This document shows, one piece after another, positions 14,639 to 64,000 of a stretch of DNA of 64,000 nt (its first letter is position 1; every line of letters begins with the position of its first letter). Below the pieces are notes generated by a model that was not told where the DNA came from, made no database searches, and worked only from the letters and a program-made list of their open reading frames with translations. The DNA is taken from NCBI GenBank assembly GCA_020161245.1, contig JAIUOK010000021.1, forward strand, positions 1-64,000, read 5' to 3'. Both the position numbers and the translations under genes were made by a program. This stretch comes from Actinomycetota bacterium (GTDB taxonomy: Bacteria; Actinomycetota; Actinomycetes; S36-B12; CAIYMF01).

Positions 14639-15306
14639 GCCTCGACGAGACCCTTCAGGATCGAGGTGAAGAAGCCCAGTCCGTCGGTGGTGGGGCCGGT
14701 GAGCGGCTCGACGGCGTGCTCCGGGTGCGGCATGAGCCCGACGACGTTGCCGCGCTCGTTGGCGATGCCGGCGATGTCGCGGCGGCTGCCGTTGGGGTTG
14801 AGCTCGAGGTAGCGGGCGACCACACGGCCCTCGCCCTCGAGACGGTCCAGCGTGGCCTCGTCGGCGACGTAGCCGCCCTCGCCGTTCTTCAGCGGCACCA
14901 CGATCTCCTGGCCCACCTCGTACGACGACGTCCATGCGGTCGACGTCGACTCGATGCGCAGGCGCTGGTCGCGGCAGACGAAGTGCAGGCTGTCGTTGCG
15001 CACGAGCGCTCCGGGCAGCAGGTGCGACTCGCAGAGGATCTGGAAGCCGTTGCAGATGCCGAGCACCGGCAGTCCGCCCTGCGCGGCCTTGACTAGCTCG
15101 CCCATCACCGGTGCGAAGCGGGCGATCGCGCCGCAGCGCAGGTAGTCGCCGTAGGAGAAGCCGCCGGGCAGCACCACGGCGTCGACGCCGTGCAGGTCGG
15201 CGTCGGCGTGCCAGAGGGCCACCGCCTCGCCGCCGGCGATGCGCACCGCGCGGGCGGCGTCGCGGTCGTCGAGCGATCCCGGGAAGGTGACGACGCCGAC
15301 GCGCAT
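14635..15306 (-). CDS. purQ: phosphoribosylformylglycinamidine synthase subunit PurQ
   Basis: The 223-residue class I glutamine amidotransferase supplies ammonia to PurL. The nucleophile motif GICNGFQ (Cys at about residue 85) and the catalytic MPHPEHA near the C-terminus are intact, as are [11 protein letters not shown] and the start [11 protein letters not shown]. The ATG overlaps the purS stop by one base (TGATG), and the stop overlaps purL (ATGA); the three subunits are therefore made in a coupled series. Confidence 0.97.
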
Positions 15307-15554
15307 CAGGCCGTGACCTCTCGGATCACGTAGTCCTCGATCACCGGGTTGGACAGCAGCGAGCCGGCCAGCTCGTGGACCTGGGCGAGGCGCTCCTCGT
15401 CGATCTCGCCGTCGAGCTCGACGGTGAAGGTCTTGCCCTGGCGGACCGAGGTCACCCCCTCGAGGCCCAGGCGCCCGAGGGCCCCTTCGACGGCCTTGCC
15501 CTGGGGGTCCAGGATCTCCGGCTTGAGCATGACGTCGACGACGACGCGGGCCAC
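15306..15554 (-). CDS. purS: phosphoribosylformylglycinamidine synthase subunit PurS
   Basis: The 82-residue PurS dimer bridges PurL and PurQ. The sequence [23 protein letters not shown] at the N-terminus and the strand GKTFTVEL plus NPVIEDYVI are diagnostic. It starts with GTG at 15554 and is the first gene of the purS-purQ-purL operon. The promoter should lie between it and the repeat at 15681-15766; no clear -35/-10 pair stands out. Confidence 0.96.
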
Positions 15555-15680
15555 GGGGCGCTCCAGGCGTAGGTCGGGCGGTACACCGCATCCTACCGAC
15601 CCAAACCCGGCCCCCCGACCACCCGCCTCCCCAGTCCACCCCGCCGCCCATCCGCCCCGAATGCCGGTGGCCAGGTTTGC

Positions 15681-15766
15681 GGTGAAGGTGCCCCTGCTTG
15701 CGATAGAAGCAAGAAATGCGCCCCAGGCTGTCCACAGCTACGGCCTGGGGGCGCGACGCATCCACA
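15681..15766 (-). repeat. TGTGGA/CTTGC element, copy 1
   Basis: Read on the minus strand, a 47-base core (15727-15681) runs from CCTGGGGCGC through the hairpin CTTGCTTCTATCGCAAG to CACCTTCACC and is nearly identical in four places in the window. Upstream of it lie two TGTGGA motifs starting at 15766 and 15736, 30 bases apart. Total 86 bp, as in copies 2 and 3. It starts 28 bases beyond the IMPase stop. Here the core is also flanked by a GCGCCCCAGGC/GCCTGGGGGCGC hairpin. Confidence 0.85.
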
Positions 15767-15794
15767 GCCGCAGCGCCCGCGACCGGCTCCGGTG

Positions 15795-16643
15795 TCAGAC
15801 GCCCGCGTCGCCGAAGACGAGGTCGCGGACGGCGGCCCACGAGCGCTCGTCGCGGGCTGACAGCAGCCCGAGCCGGTCGACGCCGGGCAGGTACGGCGTC
15901 CCGTCGAGATGGCGGACAGCGCCGCCGGACTCGGCCAGGAGCAGCGCGCCCGGGACGTGGTCCCACGGGTAGCTGCGCCAGAACAGCGCGGCGTCGGACT
16001 CCCCGGCGAGCATCCGCACGTAGCCGATCGCGGCCGACATCGGCGGCCGCTCGTCGAGCCGTGCCTTGGCCGCGGGCGTGATGCGCGCACGGACGTCGTC
16101 GGGCAGGTACTTCACCGCGATCCAGCCGTACAGGTCGTCGGCGTCGCGCGCAGGACCCGCAGCAGCGTCCACCCGGACGCCGTCGAGCCACGCCCCGCCG
16201 CCGAGCGACGCCGACGCCAGGACGCCGGTGACGGGCAGCCAGATCCAGCTCGCGGTCGTGACGCCGTCCTCGACGAGCGCAGCCATCACGCCGAAGTCGG
16301 GCGAGCCCTCGACGAAGTTGCCGGTGCCGTCGATCGGATCCACGAGCCAGTACGCCGGAAGCGCGGCGCGTCCCGCCAGCAGCGCCGGATCGGCGGCGAC
16401 CGCCTCCTCGCCCACGACCGGGACGCCGGGCGCGAGCGCGTGCAGCGCCTCGGTGATCAGCTGCTCCGCCTCGACGTCGGCCACAGTGACGAGGTCGTCC
16501 GGGCTGGACTTGGCACGGACGTCGTCGGCGCCGAGCGCCCGCCACCGCGGCAGGACGGCGACGTCGGCCGCGCGCCTGAGAACCTCGGGAACCTCGGGCG
16601 CGCCCGGCGCCGCGAGGCGTTCGAGCGACGGGTTGCGCGGCAC
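15795..16643 (-). CDS. inositol monophosphatase-family phosphatase
   Basis: The 282-residue protein has the Li+-sensitive phosphatase signatures: VVGEEAV (metal-binding Glu), [15 protein letters not shown] (about residues 98-112, DPxDGT) and [18 protein letters not shown] (second metal site). Members hydrolyse myo-inositol-1-phosphate, histidinol-phosphate or related sugar phosphates with Mg2+. Sequence alone does not decide between SuhB, HisN and CysQ-like activity. The GTG start is one base from the galE stop, so the two are co-transcribed; sugar-phosphate metabolism would fit. Confidence 0.88.
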
Positions 16644-16644
16644 G

Positions 16645-17649
16645 TCAGCCCAGGCGCGCGGTGCCCTCGGCAGCCGCGACGTTCCAGGCGTCCCAGGCCG
16701 ACTGCACCATCTCGTGCAGGTCGTACTGCGCGGTCCAGCCGAGATCGGCCTGCGCGCGCTCGGAGCTCGTCACGATCCGTGCGGGGTCGCCGGGACGGCG
16801 CGGGCCGACGTCGTAGGACACGGGGCGTCCGATCACGTCGGCCACCGCCGCGATGATCTCCTTGACCGACACGCCCTCGCCGCGGCCGAGGTTGTAAGCC
16901 GGCGCGATGTCCCTGCCGGCTGCGAGCGCGCGAGCGGCCGCGACGTGAGCGGAGGCGACGTCGGCGACGTGGATGTAGTCGCGCACGCACGAGCCGTCCG
17001 GCGTCGCGTAGTCGTCACCGAACACCGTCGGCGTGCGACCCTCTGTCACGGCCGCCAGCAGGATCGGGAACAGGTTGTGCGGGCTGACGTCGTACACCGT
17101 CGGGATGCCCGAGCCGACGACGTTGAAGTAGCGCAGGCTGGTGTGCCGGAACGGCCTGTCGCCGTTGAGTTCTGCGGCCCGTGCGACGTCGCGCAGCAGC
17201 CACTCGCCGATCAGCTTCGACTCGCCGTACGGCGACTCCGGGTTCTTGGGGGTGTCCTCGGTGACGAGGTCGGTGTCGGGAGTGCCGAACACGGCCGCAC
17301 TGCTGGAGAAGACGACGTTGCGCACGTCGGCCTTGAGGCACTCGTCGAGCAGGATCCTCGTGCCCTCGACGTTGACGCGGTAGGAGTCGAGCGGCTCCCT
17401 CACGCTGACGCCGGCGTACTTCAGCGCCGCGACGTGGACGACGCCCTCCACACCGGGACGCCGCAGCACCTCGGCCACCGCGGGCGCGTCGGTGATCGAG
17501 CCGTGGTGCAGCTCCACGCCGTCAGGCACGAACGCCGTCCGCCCGCTGTTGAGATCGTCGAGCACGATCGAGGGGATCCCCTCAGCGGCGAACGCCGCCA
17601 CGACGTGCGATCCGATGTAGCCGGCGCCTCCGGTCACGACCCAGGTCAT
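16645..17649 (-). CDS. galE: UDP-glucose 4-epimerase
   Basis: The 334-residue extended SDR converts UDP-glucose and UDP-galactose. It has the NAD-binding VVTGGAGYIGSHVV at the very N-terminus, FSSSAAVFG, the catalytic SPYGESKLIGE (Y-x3-K), the substrate segment LRYFNVVGS and the GalE-type SCVRDYIHVADVASAH. Length matches the family. It leads a two-gene unit with the downstream IMPase gene. Start ATG 17649 gives the exact family N-terminus; an open frame upstream to 17829 lacks similarity. Confidence 0.93.
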   Translation of the reverse strand: MTWVVTGGAGYIGSHVVAAFAAEGIPSIVLDDLNSGRTAFVPDGVELHHGSITDAPAVAEVLRRPGVEGVVHVAALKYAGVSVREPLDSYRVNVEGTRILLDECLKADVRNVVFSSSAAVFGTPDTDLVTEDTPKNPESPYGESKLIGEWLLRDVARAAELNGDRPFRHTSLRYFNVVGSGIPTVYDVSPHNLFPILLAAVTEGRTPTVFGDDYATPDGSCVRDYIHVADVASAHVAAARALAAGRDIAPAYNLGRGEGVSVKEIIAAVADVIGRPVSYDVGPRRPGDPARIVTSSERAQADLGWTAQYDLHEMVQSAWDAWNVAAAEGTARLG

Positions 17650-17814
17650 GACGTCCAACCTAGCCGTCGGGGCAGGGCCGCCGACGGGGTCCTCATGACT
17701 CGAACATGACCCGCCCAGGAACCTCGAAACCGAACAGGTCCCTGTGCGGTTCCGGCGTCGGGGCCGGCATGTACGGCGTCCCGCCGACGGCGCACCCGGG
17801 TTACGCGGGACCGC

Positions 17815-17900
17815 TGTGGACGACGGCACGCAGGGGGCGGCTGCTGTGGACAGCCTGGGGCGCTCTTCTTGCTTCTATCGCAAGCGGGGGCACCTTCACC
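17815..17900 (+). repeat. TGTGGA/CTTGC element, copy 2
   Basis: Core 17854-17900 (47 bp) with the hairpin CTTGCTTCTATCGCAAG, and two TGTGGA motifs starting at 17815 and 17845, 30 bp apart; total 86 bp. It lies in the 293-bp gap between galE and purC, 43 bases beyond the purC stop. No gene was seen in the rest of the gap. Confidence 0.88.
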
Positions 17901-17942
17901 GGGAAAGGGGTCCCGCGGGCCTGGGGCGGCTGGGCGGGTGGG

Positions 17943-18836
17943 TCAGGCGAAGCGCTTGCCGGTGAGGCGCTCGTAGGCCTCGATGTACTTGGCGCGGGTC
18001 TTCTCGACGACGTCGTCGGGCAGGGGCGGGGGCGCCTCGCCGCTGTGGCGGTCCCAGCCGCTGGCGGGCGAGGTGAGCCAGTCGCGGACGTACTGCTTGT
18101 CGTACGACGGCTGCGCGTGGCCCGGCTCCCACTGGTCGGCGGGCCAGTAGCGCGACGAGTCGGGGGTGAGCACCTCGTCGGCGAGCACGATCGCGCCGTC
18201 GCCCCGCTGGCCGAACTCGAGCTTGGTGTCGGCGAGCAGCAGCCCGCGGTCGGCCGCGACCGAGGCTGCGCGGTCGTACACCGCGACGGTCAGACGGCGC
18301 AGCTGCTGGGCCTCGTCCTGCCCGATCGCAGCGACGACCTCGTCGAAGGTCACGTTCTCGTCGTGCTCGCCGAGCTCGGCCTTCGTGGCCGGCGTGAAGA
18401 TCGTCTTGGGCAGCTTCGAGCCGTCCTTGAGCCCCGGCGGCAGCCCGACGCCGCACACCGAGCCGCTCGCGGCGTACTCGACCAGGCCCGAGCCGGTGAG
18501 GTAGCCGCGGGCCACGCACTCCACCGGGAACATCTCGAGCTTCGAGCACACCATCGCGCGGCGCTCCACCGCGGCCGGCACGTTGGTGGTGATGACGTGG
18601 TTGGGCACGATGTCGCCGAGCCGGTCGAACCACCACAGCGACATCGCGGTGAGGATGCGGCCCTTGTCCGGGATCGGCGTCGGAAGCACCCAGTCGTAGG
18701 CCGAGATCCGGTCGGACGCGACGAACAGCAGCCTGCCGTCCGGGGTCTCGTAGAGGTCGCGCACCTTGCCGGAGTACACGTGGCGGTACCCCTCGGGGAG
18801 CTCGTACTCGGGGGTCGGTGCCACGGCGCTGCTCAC
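17943..18836 (-). CDS. purC: phosphoribosylaminoimidazole-succinocarboxamide synthase (SAICAR synthetase)
   Basis: The 297-residue enzyme joins CAIR and aspartate with ATP, the eighth step of purine synthesis. HVYSGKVRDLYE at about residue 20 and FVASDRISAYDWVLPTPIPDKG are the PurC nucleotide and substrate motifs; ECVARGYLTGSG and LADTKLEFG follow. Length and order are those of the family. It starts with GTG at 18836 and is transcribed alone or read from mvaB, from which it is separated by a strong palindrome. Confidence 0.96.
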   Translation of the reverse strand: MSSAVAPTPEYELPEGYRHVYSGKVRDLYETPDGRLLFVASDRISAYDWVLPTPIPDKGRILTAMSLWWFDRLGDIVPNHVITTNVPAAVERRAMVCSKLEMFPVECVARGYLTGSGLVEYAASGSVCGVGLPPGLKDGSKLPKTIFTPATKAELGEHDENVTFDEVVAAIGQDEAQQLRRLTVAVYDRAASVAADRGLLLADTKLEFGQRGDGAIVLADEVLTPDSSRYWPADQWEPGHAQPSYDKQYVRDWLTSPASGWDRHSGEAPPPLPDDVVEKTRAKYIEAYERLTGKRFA

Positions 18837-36598: not shown

Positions 36599-36660
36599 CG
36601 AGTAACTGGCGTTGTTATCGGTTTGCAGGCCCCGAAAGCGATGACAACGCCAGTTACTCG
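36599..36660. repeat. 62-bp palindrome family, copy 6
   Basis: Arms 36599-36624 and 36635-36660 pair at 24 of 26 positions around a 10-base loop; exactly 62 bp. The TAA stop of the AbiEi/DUF559 gene (36656-36654) is inside the right arm (GCGAGTAAC read on the minus strand). Confidence 0.92.
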
Positions 36661-37676
36661 CGCGTGGGTGGCCGTCTTGCGTGGCGAGCGGGGACGCCGA
36701 GAGCCCGCGCCGCGCGATTCACCACGACCCCGGCCGGCTCTCCGGTCACCCACCGGACGAACCGCCAGCCCGCCGCCTCGAGGTCGTCCTGCCGCTCGCG
36801 TTGCTCGCGGTAGCGCCGGCGCTGCTCCTCCGCGGTGACGCCGTACTTCTCCAGCCCGTCCGCCTCACCGATGAGCCGGGCGTCCTTCCAGAGGAAGTCG
36901 ACGTAGTAGCGACGGCCCGAAGCCCCCTGCACCGGCCACCCGACGAGCGGGACGGGCAGACCGGCCAACAGGAACTGGCCCCGGGACCAGCTCTCCAGCG
37001 GCGACTCGCTCGCACACTCGAGCAGATCGAGGGCTTGGCGCAGCACCCGCGTGCCCGGCCATGACCACACGGCCGTGAAGGCGTCCTCGAGAGTCTCTCG
37101 TACATCCGCGTACGCAGAGTGCGGCAGCTCGCGTCTGCGGATCGCGGTCGCCACCCGGCCATCTGAGGCGCCGAGCAGATTCCTGGCCGCGCCGTCGATC
37201 GCCATCATCGCCGCAGGCAGAGACCGCCCTCGGCCGAGGTCCATGGCGGTTCGGGCCGGCGTCGTCACGCGGATACCGTCCACCACCTCGACGAACCGCT
37301 CCGGCAGCCGCGAACCGTGGACCGTAAGCCCGCCATCGCTCCGCTCGGCCTGCCCGGCGACGGTGACTTGGACGCCCAGACGCTCCGGCCACGGCACCCA
37401 CAGCCGTTGAAGCCGACCGGCCGTCTCGTGACTGGCTGCGGCTCTGGGATCGAGCCGGCCCATCAGCGCACGCAGGTGCGACGGGTCCTCAGGTTCGCCC
37501 GCGCGTCGCGGCTGTGAGGGCACGTCGTAGAGACCGCGCCGAATGCGGCACACGGCGCCTGAAGCAACGGCGCGGTCGATCTGCTGCGGGCCCCAGCCCG
37601 CCCCGAGCAGCTCGGCCCGGGTCCACGGGCCGGGTCCCAGCGCCTGCACGCGGTCGAGCGTCCGTCTCTGCACCAT
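36654..37676 (-). CDS. AbiEi-antitoxin-like and DUF559 endonuclease-fold fusion protein
   Basis: The 340-residue protein has an N-terminal winged-helix AbiEi-like domain (GPWTRAELLGAGWGPQQIDRAV...IRRGLYDVP, residues 15-52) and a C-terminal PD-(D/E)xK-like DUF559/Vsr domain (ESPLESWSRGQFL, YYVDFLWKDARLIGEADG, DDLEAAGWRFVRWV, about 228-320). The Glu, Asp and Glu-x-Asp expected for a nuclease centre are visible. Such solitary genes are frequent in Actinobacteria and no toxin partner is present, so a defence or DNA-repair role is only a possibility. The final codons R-E-TAA come from a palindromic repeat. Confidence 0.75.
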   Translation of the reverse strand: MVQRRTLDRVQALGPGPWTRAELLGAGWGPQQIDRAVASGAVCRIRRGLYDVPSQPRRAGEPEDPSHLRALMGRLDPRAAASHETAGRLQRLWVPWPERLGVQVTVAGQAERSDGGLTVHGSRLPERFVEVVDGIRVTTPARTAMDLGRGRSLPAAMMAIDGAARNLLGASDGRVATAIRRRELPHSAYADVRETLEDAFTAVWSWPGTRVLRQALDLLECASESPLESWSRGQFLLAGLPVPLVGWPVQGASGRRYYVDFLWKDARLIGEADGLEKYGVTAEEQRRRYREQRERQDDLEAAGWRFVRWVTGEPAGVVVNRAARALGVPARHARRPPTRE

Positions 37677-37754: not shown

Positions 37755-37816
37755 CGAGTAACTGCCCTAGCCATCGGTTTCGGGCGGCTGAAACCGATGA
37801 CAACGCCAGTTACTCG
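37755..37816. repeat. 62-bp palindrome family, copy 7
   Basis: Arms 37755-37780 and 37791-37816 pair at 22 of 26 positions; exactly 62 bp. Mismatches cluster in the same mid-arm stretch as in copies 3, 5 and 8. It lies between the AbiEi/DUF559 start and the fba terminator. Confidence 0.9.
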
Positions 37817-50391: not shown

Positions 50392-52983
<2,592 letters not shown>

Positions 52984-53069: not shown

Positions 53070-53155
53070 TGTGGACGGTGCGGCGTCCCCGGCGTCGGCT
53101 GGGGACAGCCTGGGGCGCTTTCCTTGCTTCTATCGCAAGCGGGGGCACCTTCACC
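53070..53155 (+). repeat. TGTGGA/CTTGC element, copy 3
   Basis: Core 53109-53155 (47 bp), with TGTGGA at 53070 and TGGGGA at 53100, 30 bp apart; total 86 bp. It lies in the 196-bp gap between clpB start and hspR stop, 24 bases beyond the latter. Confidence 0.88.
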
Positions 53156-53179
53156 TGTTACGTGCGGGGCCCCTCGGGG

Positions 53180-53584
53180 TCAGCGGGAGCGGTCGGCGGG
53201 GCGGGGGCGCCAGACGACCAGGGCGGTGCCGGGCTCGCCGCCCGGACCGGAGGGGCGCGATCCGAGGGTGGGCCGCAGCCGGGCCACCTCGGCGCGCAGC
53301 AGGCCGACCTCCGCGCGGAGGCGGTCGTTGTCGGCTTCGAGGGAGAGGATCCGCTGGATGCCGGCGAGGTTGACACCCTCGCCGGACAGCCGCGAGACCT
53401 CGCGCAGCCGCTCGATGTCGCGCAGCGAGTACAGCCGGTTGCGCCCGCCGGTGCGGTCCGGCGACACCAGGCCGAGCCGGTCGTACTGCCGGAGCGTCTG
53501 CGGGTGCATGCCGGCGATCTGCGCGGCCACCGAGATGACGTACACCGGGGTGGTGTCGTCGGGACGGAGCCTGCTGTCGTCCAT
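53180..53584 (-). CDS. hspR: heat-shock repressor HspR (MerR family)
   Basis: The 134-residue MerR-type protein has [47 protein letters not shown], the winged helix-turn-helix, then a leucine-rich coiled coil ([28 protein letters not shown]). HspR binds inverted HAIR sites and represses dnaK/clpB, with DnaK as corepressor (known of Streptomyces and Mycobacterium). ATG overlaps the dnaJ stop (TGATG), so it is the last gene of dnaK-grpE-dnaJ-hspR. The C-terminal tail is arginine- and proline-rich. Confidence 0.95.
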
Positions 53585-60463: not shown

Positions 60464-62677
60464 CTACTGCGGCGAGAGCCCTGCAGCTGCGCGCACGAGC
60501 GGGCGCAGCCGCTGCTCGAGGTAGGGCGCGAGCGCGCGTGCGAAGGTCGCCGTGAGGTGGTCGGTGTCGCGGTAGACGAGGTACTTGCCGCGCGTCGCCG
60601 GGCAGCGGTCGGCGTCGCAGATGAGGTCGCTCAGGTCGAGTGCGGCGGCGCGCTCGACGCCCTTGACCATGCCGACGTCGTACTTCGTCGCGTCGAGGGC
60701 GTCGCGGGTGACATCGCAGGCGGCGGGGTCGTCGCGGTTCTGCCCCACGCAGGCGGCCATGTCGCGGCCGGGCCACGGGGTGTCGCGCAGGACGGCCACG
60801 GCGACGCCGGCATCGGTGAGGCGTGCGAGCGTGCGCCGCCATCCGTCCTGCCACTCCGCACCCGCGCGCGCGGTGCCCTCGAGGCGGGCGCCACCGTCGC
60901 GTGCGACCAGCGACTCGGTGCGGGTGCCGGCGGCCACGACCAGCGTGGGCTTCGTCGTCGTCGTGAGCCTGGTCAGCACGGCCTCGCGCCACGCGTCGCA
61001 CTCGTCGTACGGCCGTGCGAGCCGGCGCTGCCAGATCGTCACGTCGGGCGCGGGGCAGCCGGACTTCGTCCACGACAGCAGCCGCCAGCCGCGGTCGTCG
61101 GCCACCTTCTGCAGTGCCGGGAACCACTGGGCCGCGTGCGAATCGCCGATCAGCACCACCGTGACGTCGGACGACGTGGAGCCGAACGCGCAGCCGTCCT
61201 TGGGGGCGGTGACCGGCGGGTCGACATGGCAGCCGTCGCCGTAGATCGACGGCAGGTCGTCGCGGGCGTCCGACGGGTCGGGGGTGAGCGGCCCGGTCGG
61301 CCACACCACGGGCTGGGCGGACGGGGACACGGTCGGCGCCGGGCTGCCGGATCCCGCGCCCGGCGTCGGCGTGGCACTGGGCCGGGCGGTCGCGATGGGA
61401 GCGGCACCGCGATCGCCGTCGGCCGTGGGCGCAGCCGACACCGTGGCGAGCCCGCCGCCGCCCGGGAGCAGCGCGAGGACCAGACCGAACGCTGCGGCGG
61501 AGGCGCTGAGGATCCCGCCGAGCCGCAGCGACCGGCCCGGGTCGGCCGCCAGGGCGGCGTCGTGGCGGACGGGCTGCTCGACCCAGCGGTAGGCGGCCAC
61601 GGCAGGCAGCAGCGAGGCCACCGCCAGCGCGACGGACAGCCAGAGCGGCAGCGGGCCGAGGACCGACGCCGCGAGCACCAGTACCGGCCAGTGCCAGAGG
61701 TACCACGAGTACGAGATGCGGCCGACTGCGCGCATCGGCCCGGTGCCCATGAGGCCCGGCACCCCGCGCAGAGGCCGGTCGGCATCGGCCGGCCGGATGC
61801 CGGCCGCGATGATCGCCGCCGTGCCGAGCACCGGCCACAGGGCTGCGGTACCGGGGAACGGGGTGTCGCTGCTGAGCAGGAGCACGGAGCCGACGAGCAC
61901 CGCGAGGCCGGCCCAGCCCACGAGATGGCGGACGGCGGGCGACCAGCGCGCGATCGTCGTCGCACCGATGGCGAGCAGGCCACCGATCGCGAACTCCCAC
62001 GCGCGCGTGGGCATCGAGAAGAACGCCCACGGCTGCGACCGGTCGGTCAGCCGCAGCGACAGCAGGAACGACGCGATGCCCAGCAGGGCGAGGGATCCGG
62101 CGAGGAAGGCCGGCAGCAGCTCGCGGCCGCGGTGACGGCGCACGAGCAGCCAGACGACCAGCAGCACGAGCAGCGGCCACACGACGTAGAACTGCTCCTC
62201 GACGCCGAGCGACCAGAAGTGCAGGGCGGGCGACGGGGCGGCGTCCTCGGTGAGGTAGTCGGTGGCCTGGAACGCGAAGCGGATGTTGGCGACGTAGAGC
62301 GCGGAGGCCACAAGGTCGAGCCCGACCGTCTGGTGGTCGATCGCCGGGATCATCGCGAACGACGCGACCGCGGTGACGGCGATGACGAGCGTCGCGGCGG
62401 GCAGCAGCCGTCGGGCGCGGCGCGCCCAGAACCTCGACAGCGACACCGTGCCGGTGCGCGCGACCTCGGCGACCAGCAGACCCGTGATGAGGAAGCCCGA
62501 GATCACGAAGAAGACGTCGACGCCGACGAAGCCGCCGGGCAGGAACGGCAGGCCCGCGTGGTAGCCGACGACCGCGAGGATCGCCACGGCGCGCAAGCCC
62601 TCGACGTCGGGCCGGAACGACAGCGAGCGGCCGGTCGTGGCGCCCCTAGCAGCAGGGGCCGTCGTCAAGCCGCTCAC
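60464..62677 (-). CDS. OafA-type acyltransferase with SGNH domain
   Basis: The 737-residue protein begins RPDVEGLRAVAILAVVGYHAG and FFVISGFLITGLL, the acyltransferase-3 start with catalytic His, and has about 11 membrane helices to residue 410, then a Ala/Pro/Thr linker and a C-terminal extracytoplasmic SGNH hydrolase domain (VVLIGDSHAAQWFPALQKV for the Ser block, and DTDHLTATFARALAPYL for the catalytic Asp-x-x-His). It should acylate a surface or exported glycan. GTG 62677 is the likely start. A second gene of the same type follows upstream. Confidence 0.93.
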   Translation of the reverse strand: MSGLTTAPAARGATTGRSLSFRPDVEGLRAVAILAVVGYHAGLPFLPGGFVGVDVFFVISGFLITGLLVAEVARTGTVSLSRFWARRARRLLPAATLVIAVTAVASFAMIPAIDHQTVGLDLVASALYVANIRFAFQATDYLTEDAAPSPALHFWSLGVEEQFYVVWPLLVLLVVWLLVRRHRGRELLPAFLAGSLALLGIASFLLSLRLTDRSQPWAFFSMPTRAWEFAIGGLLAIGATTIARWSPAVRHLVGWAGLAVLVGSVLLLSSDTPFPGTAALWPVLGTAAIIAAGIRPADADRPLRGVPGLMGTGPMRAVGRISYSWYLWHWPVLVLAASVLGPLPLWLSVALAVASLLPAVAAYRWVEQPVRHDAALAADPGRSLRLGGILSASAAAFGLVLALLPGGGGLATVSAAPTADGDRGAAPIATARPSATPTPGAGSGSPAPTVSPSAQPVVWPTGPLTPDPSDARDDLPSIYGDGCHVDPPVTAPKDGCAFGSTSSDVTVVLIGDSHAAQWFPALQKVADDRGWRLLSWTKSGCPAPDVTIWQRRLARPYDECDAWREAVLTRLTTTTKPTLVVAAGTRTESLVARDGGARLEGTARAGAEWQDGWRRTLARLTDAGVAVAVLRDTPWPGRDMAACVGQNRDDPAACDVTRDALDATKYDVGMVKGVERAAALDLSDLICDADRCPATRGKYLVYRDTDHLTATFARALAPYLEQRLRPLVRAAAGLSPQ

Positions 62678-62689
62678 CGCACGAGTCTA

Positions 62690-62765
62690 GGTGGACGGCG
62701 CGCCGGGCCTGTGGATCGCCTGGGGCGCTTTCCTTGCTTCTATCGCAAGCAGGGGCACCTTCACC
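62690..62765 (+). repeat. TGTGGA/CTTGC element, copy 4
   Basis: Core 62719-62765 (47 bp) with the CTTGC/GCAAG hairpin. TGTGGA at 62710 keeps its 9-base distance to the core; the second motif (GGTGGA at 62690) is only 20 bp away here, so this copy is 76 bp. It lies between the two acyltransferase genes, 34 bases beyond the stop of the upstream gene. Confidence 0.85.
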
Positions 62766-62799
62766 TGTAAAGGGGGGCCCGGGACAGGGGGGTGCGGGA

Positions 62800-64000
62800 T
62801 CAGGCCTGGGGGAGGTGCTTGTCGACGATGCGGGCGAGATAGGGGGCCAGGGTGCGGGTGTAGGTGGCAGTGGCGTGGTCGTCGTCGCGCCACACCGCGA
62901 CGCCGCCGATCACCGTGGCGCAGAGCTTCTGCGGGCAGAACATCCACGCCGTGGTGCTGTACGCGACGCCGGCAGCCGACGCCGCTGCCCTCTCGGGCTT
63001 CGGCGTCGCGAGCATCTCCGAGAGGCGCTGGTCGCAGGCTGCCGGGTCGTCCTCGTGGCGCGACAGGCAGTCGACGCGGTCCTCGCCCGGCATCGGGTTG
63101 TCCTGCAGCACCAGCACCTCGCCGGCGTAGCGGTCGAGCTGGCGGTACGACGATGCGAGTCCCGCCGCGATCCGCGGATCCGACGCCGACCTGCCGAGGC
63201 GCTGGCCGCCGGACATCACGTAGTAGTTCTGCCGGTTGGCGGTGAGCACGAGGTCGGGCTTCTCCTGCTGGATCCGCTTGAAGGCGTTGGCCCGCCACTG
63301 GTCGCACTCGGTGTAGGCCCGCTTGAGCACGGGGCTGTAGACCGTCACCGGCGCGATCGTGCACGCGTGCTTGGTCAGGCTCACCAGGCGCCAGCCGCGG
63401 TCGGCGGCGATCTTCTCCAGCGCCGGGAACCACGACGCGGCGTGGGAGTCGCCGAGCAGCACGAGCGTGCGGTCGCCGTCGGCCTTGCCGTACACGCAGT
63501 CGGGGCTCCTCGTGCCGTCGTACTGCTGGTTGCAGCCGTCGGTGTTGACCGCGGCGACGTCCTTGCGGATCTGCGTGAGCGCCGGCACGAAGGCGGTGCC
63601 GGGAGGCGTGCTCGGCGGCGCCGCGGTGGGCTTGGCCGACGCCGACGCCTGCGGGGCACCCGACTCCGAGGCCGTCGGCCCGGCGGCGTCCTGCGGTGCG
63701 CCCAGCACGGCGGCGGCTCCCGGCGCGGAGTCGGGCGGGGGTGCGAAGCGCGCGGCGAGCGTGCCCGGCAGCCACAGGACGAGGCCCGCGACGACGCCGG
63801 CGGCGATGCACGCGGCACCGAGCCGCAGCGCGCGCTGCGGGTAGCGGCTCAGCGTGGGCGAGTGGTGGAAGGGCTCCTCGACCACCTTCTTGCTGACGGC
63901 CGCGACGCCGAGCGTGGCGATCCCGACGAGGACGCCCTGCCAGACCGGCAGCTCGTCGACGCCGAAGTAGACCGCGAGCAGGACGAGCGGCGGCCAGTGC
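62800..64000 (-). CDS. OafA-type acyltransferase with SGNH domain, C-terminal part (cut by window end)
   Basis: The frame is still open at base 64000. The visible part starts within the membrane domain (HWPPLVLLAVYFG, then KKVVEEPFHHSP, the usual end of the acyltransferase-3 core), passes a final helix and an Ala/Pro-rich linker, and ends with an SGNH domain: LVLLGDSHAASWFPALEKIA (Ser), YYVMSGGQRLG and VWRDDDHATATYTRTLAPYL (Asp-x-x-His). Same design as the gene at 60464-62677 but clearly different in sequence. The pair may O-acylate different positions of one polymer. Confidence 0.9.
   Translation of the reverse strand, partial: HWPPLVLLAVYFGVDELPVWQGVLVGIATLGVAAVSKKVVEEPFHHSPTLSRYPQRALRLGAACIAAGVVAGLVLWLPGTLAARFAPPPDSAPGAAAVLGAPQDAAGPTASESGAPQASASAKPTAAPPSTPPGTAFVPALTQIRKDVAAVNTDGCNQQYDGTRSPDCVYGKADGDRTLVLLGDSHAASWFPALEKIAADRGWRLVSLTKHACTIAPVTVYSPVLKRAYTECDQWRANAFKRIQQEKPDLVLTANRQNYYVMSGGQRLGRSASDPRIAAGLASSYRQLDRYAGEVLVLQDNPMPGEDRVDCLSRHEDDPAACDQRLSEMLATPKPERAAASAAGVAYSTTAWMFCPQKLCATVIGGVAVWRDDDHATATYTRTLAPYLARIVDKHLPQA

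Follow-up and report, generated by a model that had tools for sequence, protein, structure and literature searches.

The four copies of a short dispersed element in the window (the entire 64-kb stretch of DNA that was analyzed) are arms, that is, half-elements of a larger inverted-repeat unit, and the repeats show a strong association with genes that encode a putative nuclease. We consider it probable that these repeats are a REP/REPIN-like family that a single-copy nuclease spreads and maintains in trans; no movement of the arms was observed, and we infer their spreading by the nuclease as the most economical reading. The original prediction described a dispersed element with paired TGTGGA motifs and an invariant core; that this element is half of an inverted repeat, that it exists in species-specific versions, and that a nuclease gene is flanked by the same repeat were beyond its view.

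The window, which is 88% coding, contains exactly four matches to the pattern CCTGGGGCGC-N4-CTTGCTTCTATCGCAAG-N2-GGGGCACCTTCACC (15681–15727 on the minus strand, 17854–17900, 53109–53155, and 62719–62765); all four copies are present where they had been predicted, far beyond chance (0 expected in 100 shuffles). The half-element in the hspR-clpB gap (hspR stop at 53180, clpB start at 52983) occupies 53070–53161 on the plus strand, with boxes at 53070–53075 and 53100–53105, a hairpin at 53123–53139, and the outer end CACCTTCACC extending to 53155. The copy between an inositol-monophosphatase-like gene and purS is on the minus strand (15675–15766; boxes at 15766–15761 and 15736–15731, hairpin at 15697–15713), and its outer end is 126 bp ahead of purS; the copies between purC and a galE-like gene (17815–17906; boxes at 17815 and 17845, hairpin at 17868–17884) and between an SGNH-domain gene and an acyltransferase-SGNH gene (62690–62771; boxes 20 bp apart, hairpin at 62733–62749) are on the plus strand. 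The core hairpin is CTTGC-N7-GCAAG with TAG at its apex. The core pattern is shared by all four copies, as predicted, but is not invariant throughout: the 4-nt spacer and the two bases 3′ of the hairpin vary. Likewise, the predicted 30-bp spacing of the TGTGGA pair holds for three copies but is 20 bp in the copy at 62690; the inner box of the copy at 53070 is TGGGGA instead of TGTGGA. A location 24–43 bp beyond a stop codon also describes three of the copies; the one at 15681 is 57 bp past one stop, as counted from its inner box. The SGNH-domain genes that adjoin one another at 60464–63999 have a common 115-bp repeat (61055 and 63361); this is probably a duplication.

The genome that was searched is a 4.29-Mb high-GC draft in 95 contigs (G000) and is probably actinobacterial. 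It has 37 exact occurrences of the 17-mer CTTGCTTCTATCGCAAG, or 46 if as many as two mismatches are allowed, and zero matches to the reversed control; the fuller pattern identifies 48–49 copies, and all 49 are intergenic according to our own gene calls. The region from CTGTGGACAGCCTGGGGCG to GGGGCACCTTCACC, hairpin included, is conserved, and conservation declines past about CNGNAA. The inner box is exactly TGTGGA in 44 of the 48 readable copies. Of the 48 copies, 12 have a direct second box exactly 30 bp upstream (if tight pairs are set aside, 12 of 34; the chance background is 0.013 per 5-bp window), four have one at 18–20 bp, and 20 have an inverted TCCACA box at 17–18, 24, or 29 bp; several of these spacings differ by approximately one helical turn (19/30 for direct boxes, 18/29 for inverted boxes). 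The 30-bp composite is thus real, and it is one among several arrangements in a single family. The outer end points toward the 3′ end of a gene in 32 of 48 copies, and the copies occur in both orientations relative to genes. Two contig ends (C40:1–130 and C53:1–80) break at copies; their outer flanks are nearly identical, which suggests a longer duplicated stretch.

Each arm is ~60 bp and comprises, in order, the outer end TTNCCGGTGAAGGTGCCCC, the 5-bp hairpin with the TAG apex, GCGCCCCA, and one or two TCCACAG boxes. Eleven tight inverted pairs, 71–129 bp apart, are present in which the boxes are always inside and CACCTTCACC is outside, with ~0.1 neighbors expected by chance; more widely spaced neighbors have the same orientation in seven of eight cases. 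One pair, when folded computationally, gave a near-perfect hairpin (z −14.9), and the small hairpin persists when a lone arm is folded; two inverted arms, which together form the full element, can be folded either as one long hairpin or as a clover of small hairpins. In five arms (L019, L026, L031 (two), and L036) an extra ~50-nt hairpin (GGGCCCCCGCTGGTCGG...CGGCCAGTAGGGG) precedes the outer end CTTCACC.

The stem of the hairpin covaries: in 97 distinct sequences we counted 71 compensatory cells (24 in shuffles), with a score of 0.349 (0.093 in shuffles); the alignment was fitted to the model, so the structure is somewhat favored, and the counts are of sequences, not of events. The signal vanishes when the helix is slid, and the covariation argues that the hairpin is under structural constraint. 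Structured RNAs, i.e., terminators or 3′-UTR structures that covary by chance and whose link to the nuclease is secondary, would be consistent with this covariation and with arms often located just past stop codons, their outer ends toward the gene; however, the arms occur in both orientations relative to transcription, no T-run was seen, and no Rfam family matches in the window. RNA elements would also leave unexplained why the arms are missing at the same genes in close relatives and why they are associated with a particular gene, and we regard this explanation as very improbable.

A covariance model of the arm (R1) was used to scan related genomes. Six of the 11 genus genomes are rich in arms, with 38–80 copies (50 in G000, 38 in G001, 80 in G004, 52 in G006, 73 in G007, and 38 in G009), and each has its own version of the sequence; the others have none (G002, G008, and G010) or two to four (G003 and G005). 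The stems are CTTGC/GCAAG in G000, CGTGC/GCACG in G006, GGTGC/GCACC in G007, ACTGC/GCAGT in G009, and GCGGC/GCCGC in G001, with the TAG apex conserved across the versions. In another genus, G014 (an assembly that is 72% complete) has 30 matches and no close form of the nuclease described below.

The gene order purC-galE-IMPase-purS is present in relatives that lack arms, and the arm model detects nothing in their purC-galE and IMPase-purS gaps (the former is 47 bp in G003 vs 293 bp in G000); the arms at 15675 and 17815 are therefore insertions, unless they were lost elsewhere. A composite transposon with galE and the IMPase gene as cargo was considered and rejected: the order is maintained in armless relatives, so cargo status is unsupported. 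The region between purC and purS (15306–18836 in the window) varies in the genus, i.e., it may be empty or contain either one type of galE or a divergent one, with or without the IMPase gene. The hspR-clpB gap contains an arm in G000, G001, G006, and G009 and a variant in G004, in each case with the species' own sequence; according to the arm model, it is armless in G002, G003, G005, G007, G008, and G010. Either a hot spot for insertion or concerted change in place could account for a site that is shared although its versions have diverged. By eye, no target duplication was noticed at the ends of the pairs. The near-identity of the core had been taken to suggest recent spread or strong constraint, and this was right in outline for both: the 49 copies and the sites that are empty in relatives point to spread, and the stem covariation points to constraint.

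In G000, G004, and G006, three of the wider pairs contain homologous genes of ~340 codons between their arms (clade 1). The encoded protein has an N-terminal AbiEi-like winged helix (PADLOC AbiEi, E-value 5.5e-14) and a C-terminal region with a weak match to REase_MTES_1575/DUF559; the Pfam matches of clade 1 to the nuclease domain are below the cut-off, whereas those of five homologs (L219, L221, L223, L228, and L229) exceed it for DUF559. In 13 aligned homologs an S-x-x-E, E-x-D, H pattern is conserved, in which the E, E-x-D, and H are invariant; with both the family match and the catalytic pattern in the sequences, the C-terminal domain is assigned as a Vsr/DUF559-type PD-(D/E)XK domain, that is, a putative nuclease. 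A PDB sequence search with the protein gave no match, and single-sequence structure prediction for the homolog encoded in the window was unusable (pLDDT 42).

The presence of this gene follows the presence of the arms. In a search of 17 genomes, we found one copy of the close form (E-value below 1e-140) in each of G000, G001, G004, G006, G007, and G009, that is, in six of six arm-rich and none of five arm-poor genomes of the genus (Fisher p 0.002, treating the counts as independent), and in all six cases inverted arms are located on both sides of the gene. These six genes are found at four different loci; at the pirin-like locus common to G004 and G007 (L190 and L194), the gene lies in opposite orientations between the arms. 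Neither the arm pattern nor the protein matches viral contigs, phages have no homolog of the nuclease, and plasmids have a single one (Rhodococcus ruber). An AbiEii toxin gene was not recognized by eye among the neighbors of the nuclease that were inspected.

The same arrangement recurs with other repeats. The window itself encodes a member of the superfamily (36654–37676 on the minus strand, 340 residues), with matches to AbiEi_4 (26.4 bits; cut-off 25) and PADLOC AbiEi (E-value 4.4e-16) and weak C-terminal matches to DUF559/MTES_1575. This gene is bracketed by two copies of a different palindrome, D1, at its 3′ end (36599–36660), where the TAA stop codon falls inside the palindrome, and on its 5′ side (37755–37816), where a TGTGGA box lies between the palindrome and the start of the gene. 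D1, which the original prediction had listed as the first dispersed element, has about 37 copies in the genome and constitutes another repeat family of this type, which likewise has a nuclease gene of its own in the window. Two more nuclease genes in G000 (contigs C33 and C59; L219 and L221) are flanked by CGCTTTGGATGGGTGA palindromes, the half-sites of which number 155 in the genome (2 for the reversed control), or ~78 palindromes, with clustering on C33 and C59; G000 thus has three repeat families, each with its own nuclease gene. A second nuclease clade (G003 and G004) is flanked by GTTGC/GCAAC arms, and outside the order the R. ruber homolog (NZ_CP145323) is bracketed by GAATGTCACAT palindromes. 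As a criterion for flanking, we required inverted repeats that score at least 18 on each side, no farther than 400 bp away; it holds for 29 of 55 nuclease homologs, as compared with 0 of 21 ordinary genes in the window (Fisher p 9e-6, computed with 28 instead of 29 of the 55). These counts are not independent, the homologs being related to one another. One additional control gene scored, and this was 36654–37676, itself a homolog; about half of the distant homologs are without clear flanking repeats under this criterion.

Could the nuclease gene be a trapped passenger of ordinary MITEs that are moved by an unidentified DDE-type transposase? Inverted pairs, a patchy distribution, and sites that are empty in relatives would all fit such elements, and the wider pairs in G000 also enclose ordinary genes (galE with the IMPase gene, an LLM-type oxidoreductase, and a GNAT protein). 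However, repeat families that are unrelated to one another all contain a paralog of this nuclease between their copies, and a passenger would not be expected to recur in this way; in addition, presence of the gene predicts presence of the family in 11 of 11 genus genomes, and target duplications were not noticed. We consider the passenger explanation quite unlikely.

Of 36 nuclease genes, 34 have a TCCACA/TGTGGA box no more than 200 bp upstream, as compared with 7 of 59 control genes from the window, and in several members of different clades the upstream boxes are paired 27–30 bp apart. Because boxes recur upstream of the nuclease genes, the paired TGTGGA motifs that were originally noticed in the window can be seen to recur in the system; in the simplest reading, they are a candidate binding site for the AbiEi-nuclease protein. 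A DnaA box was also considered, because TCCACAG resembles part of the actinobacterial DnaA box; the shared extension is on the 3′ side (GG), however, and this identification was not adopted.

If the protein binds these boxes, the repeats might instead be functional sites for it (a regulon, a nucleoid mark, or a self-mark that shields the chromosome from the nuclease) that serve the cell and are retained by selection and not by mobility. AbiEi antitoxins are DNA-binding autoregulators that bind repeats in their own promoters (PMC7319586), and the PADLOC matches, the fixed box spacings (some one helical turn apart), the hspR-clpB site common to five species, and a paralog clade that stays at the same locus near radA in four species are all compatible with conserved sites. 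In contrast, the distribution is patchy in close relatives, the pur sites that were tested are not shared, the arms have both orientations to genes, and the inverted-pair structure is typical of mobile repeats; we judge selection for function alone to be unlikely.

For the preferred explanation, in which the nuclease spreads the repeats, we propose a repeat-plus-nuclease system of which the element is the non-autonomous component. One full element per genome carries the AbiEi/Vsr-type gene, and the others are empty pairs or single arms. The winged helix would bind the TCCACAG boxes and perhaps also repress its own gene in the manner of AbiEi antitoxins; the nuclease would act in trans to cut arms that are folded or form cruciforms; and the arms thereby released would be copied or captured by host repair or replication at new sites between genes. 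If the protein coevolves with its arms, this would account for stems that differ from species to species. Copying is the least certain of these steps, because a PD-(D/E)XK enzyme alone is not expected to perform direct strand transfer; an enzyme that hydrolyzes DNA would depend on host repair or replication for it.

AbiEi-REase fusions have so far been filed as antitoxins or as proteins of unknown function. We give about even odds to the broader proposal that they are the enzymes of a new actinobacterial class of mobile repeats, in which a lone PD-(D/E)XK nuclease would recognize a hairpin arm with TCCACAG boxes and spread palindromic repeats via host repair, with separate protein–repeat pairs evolving side by side in one genome. 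If true, this would provide a function for a protein family that is annotated as antitoxin or DUF559, and AbiEi matches in surveys of defense systems may be repeat-associated nucleases. The dispersed palindromic repeats of bacteria are now ascribed to HUH transposases (RAYTs) or have no associated enzyme, e.g., the CGTC REPs (PMC3733652); a second, unrelated class of enzyme would imply that REP-like systems arose more than once. A single protein and a single 60-bp DNA would suffice for a direct test of the question.

How, then, does this system compare with those already described? Its protein resembles the AbiEi antitoxins of AbiE type IV toxin-antitoxin systems in the N-terminal winged helix and the region that follows (Pfam AbiEi_4 and PADLOC AbiEi), but it adds a C-terminal nuclease-like domain. 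That domain shares the SxxE, E-x-D, and His residues of the Vsr/DUF559/REase_MTES_1575 families, whose members described to date function in repair or are conflict proteins with multiple domains (PMC3710099); in the open-access literature we found no description of members with dispersed palindromic repeats. With MITEs and the ends of IS200/IS605 elements, the repeats share terminal inverted repeats, subterminal hairpins, and empty non-autonomous copies, but no accompanying Y1 transposase was found, and no target duplication was noticed by eye. An earlier description of the pairing of these repeats with an AbiEi-nuclease was not found in the open-access literature, and since the search was confined to that literature (subscription journals and preprints lie outside it), novelty is provisional.

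The closest likeness is to the REP/REPIN-RAYT systems, or "REPtrons," in which a TnpA-REP transposase is paired with its repeats (PMC3116915, PMC8266576, PMC3733652). In both, short palindromes are repeated tens to hundreds of times between genes and form inverted doublets, of which single arms are probably left over, and the repeats flank a chromosomal gene that is present once. Both also have several distinct repeat–enzyme pairs per genome and species-specific repeats that coevolve with the enzyme; both are almost absent from plasmids and phages, as described for RAYTs. The enzymes differ: RAYTs are Y1 HUH transposases, whereas the protein here combines an AbiEi winged helix with a PD-(D/E)XK-type domain. 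The Y1 transposase (PF01797) was detected in 0 of the 17 family genomes, with control genomes positive, and neither a GTAG nor a CGTC foot was found on the palindromes in sequences of seven species, in which TAG is conserved at the hairpin apex instead; membership in the REP/RAYT systems was rejected, because neither of the two features that define them (Y1 transposase and GTAG foot) was found. The system works like a REPtron without being one, and it looks like a previously undescribed counterpart of REP/RAYT systems that is built on an unrelated enzyme.
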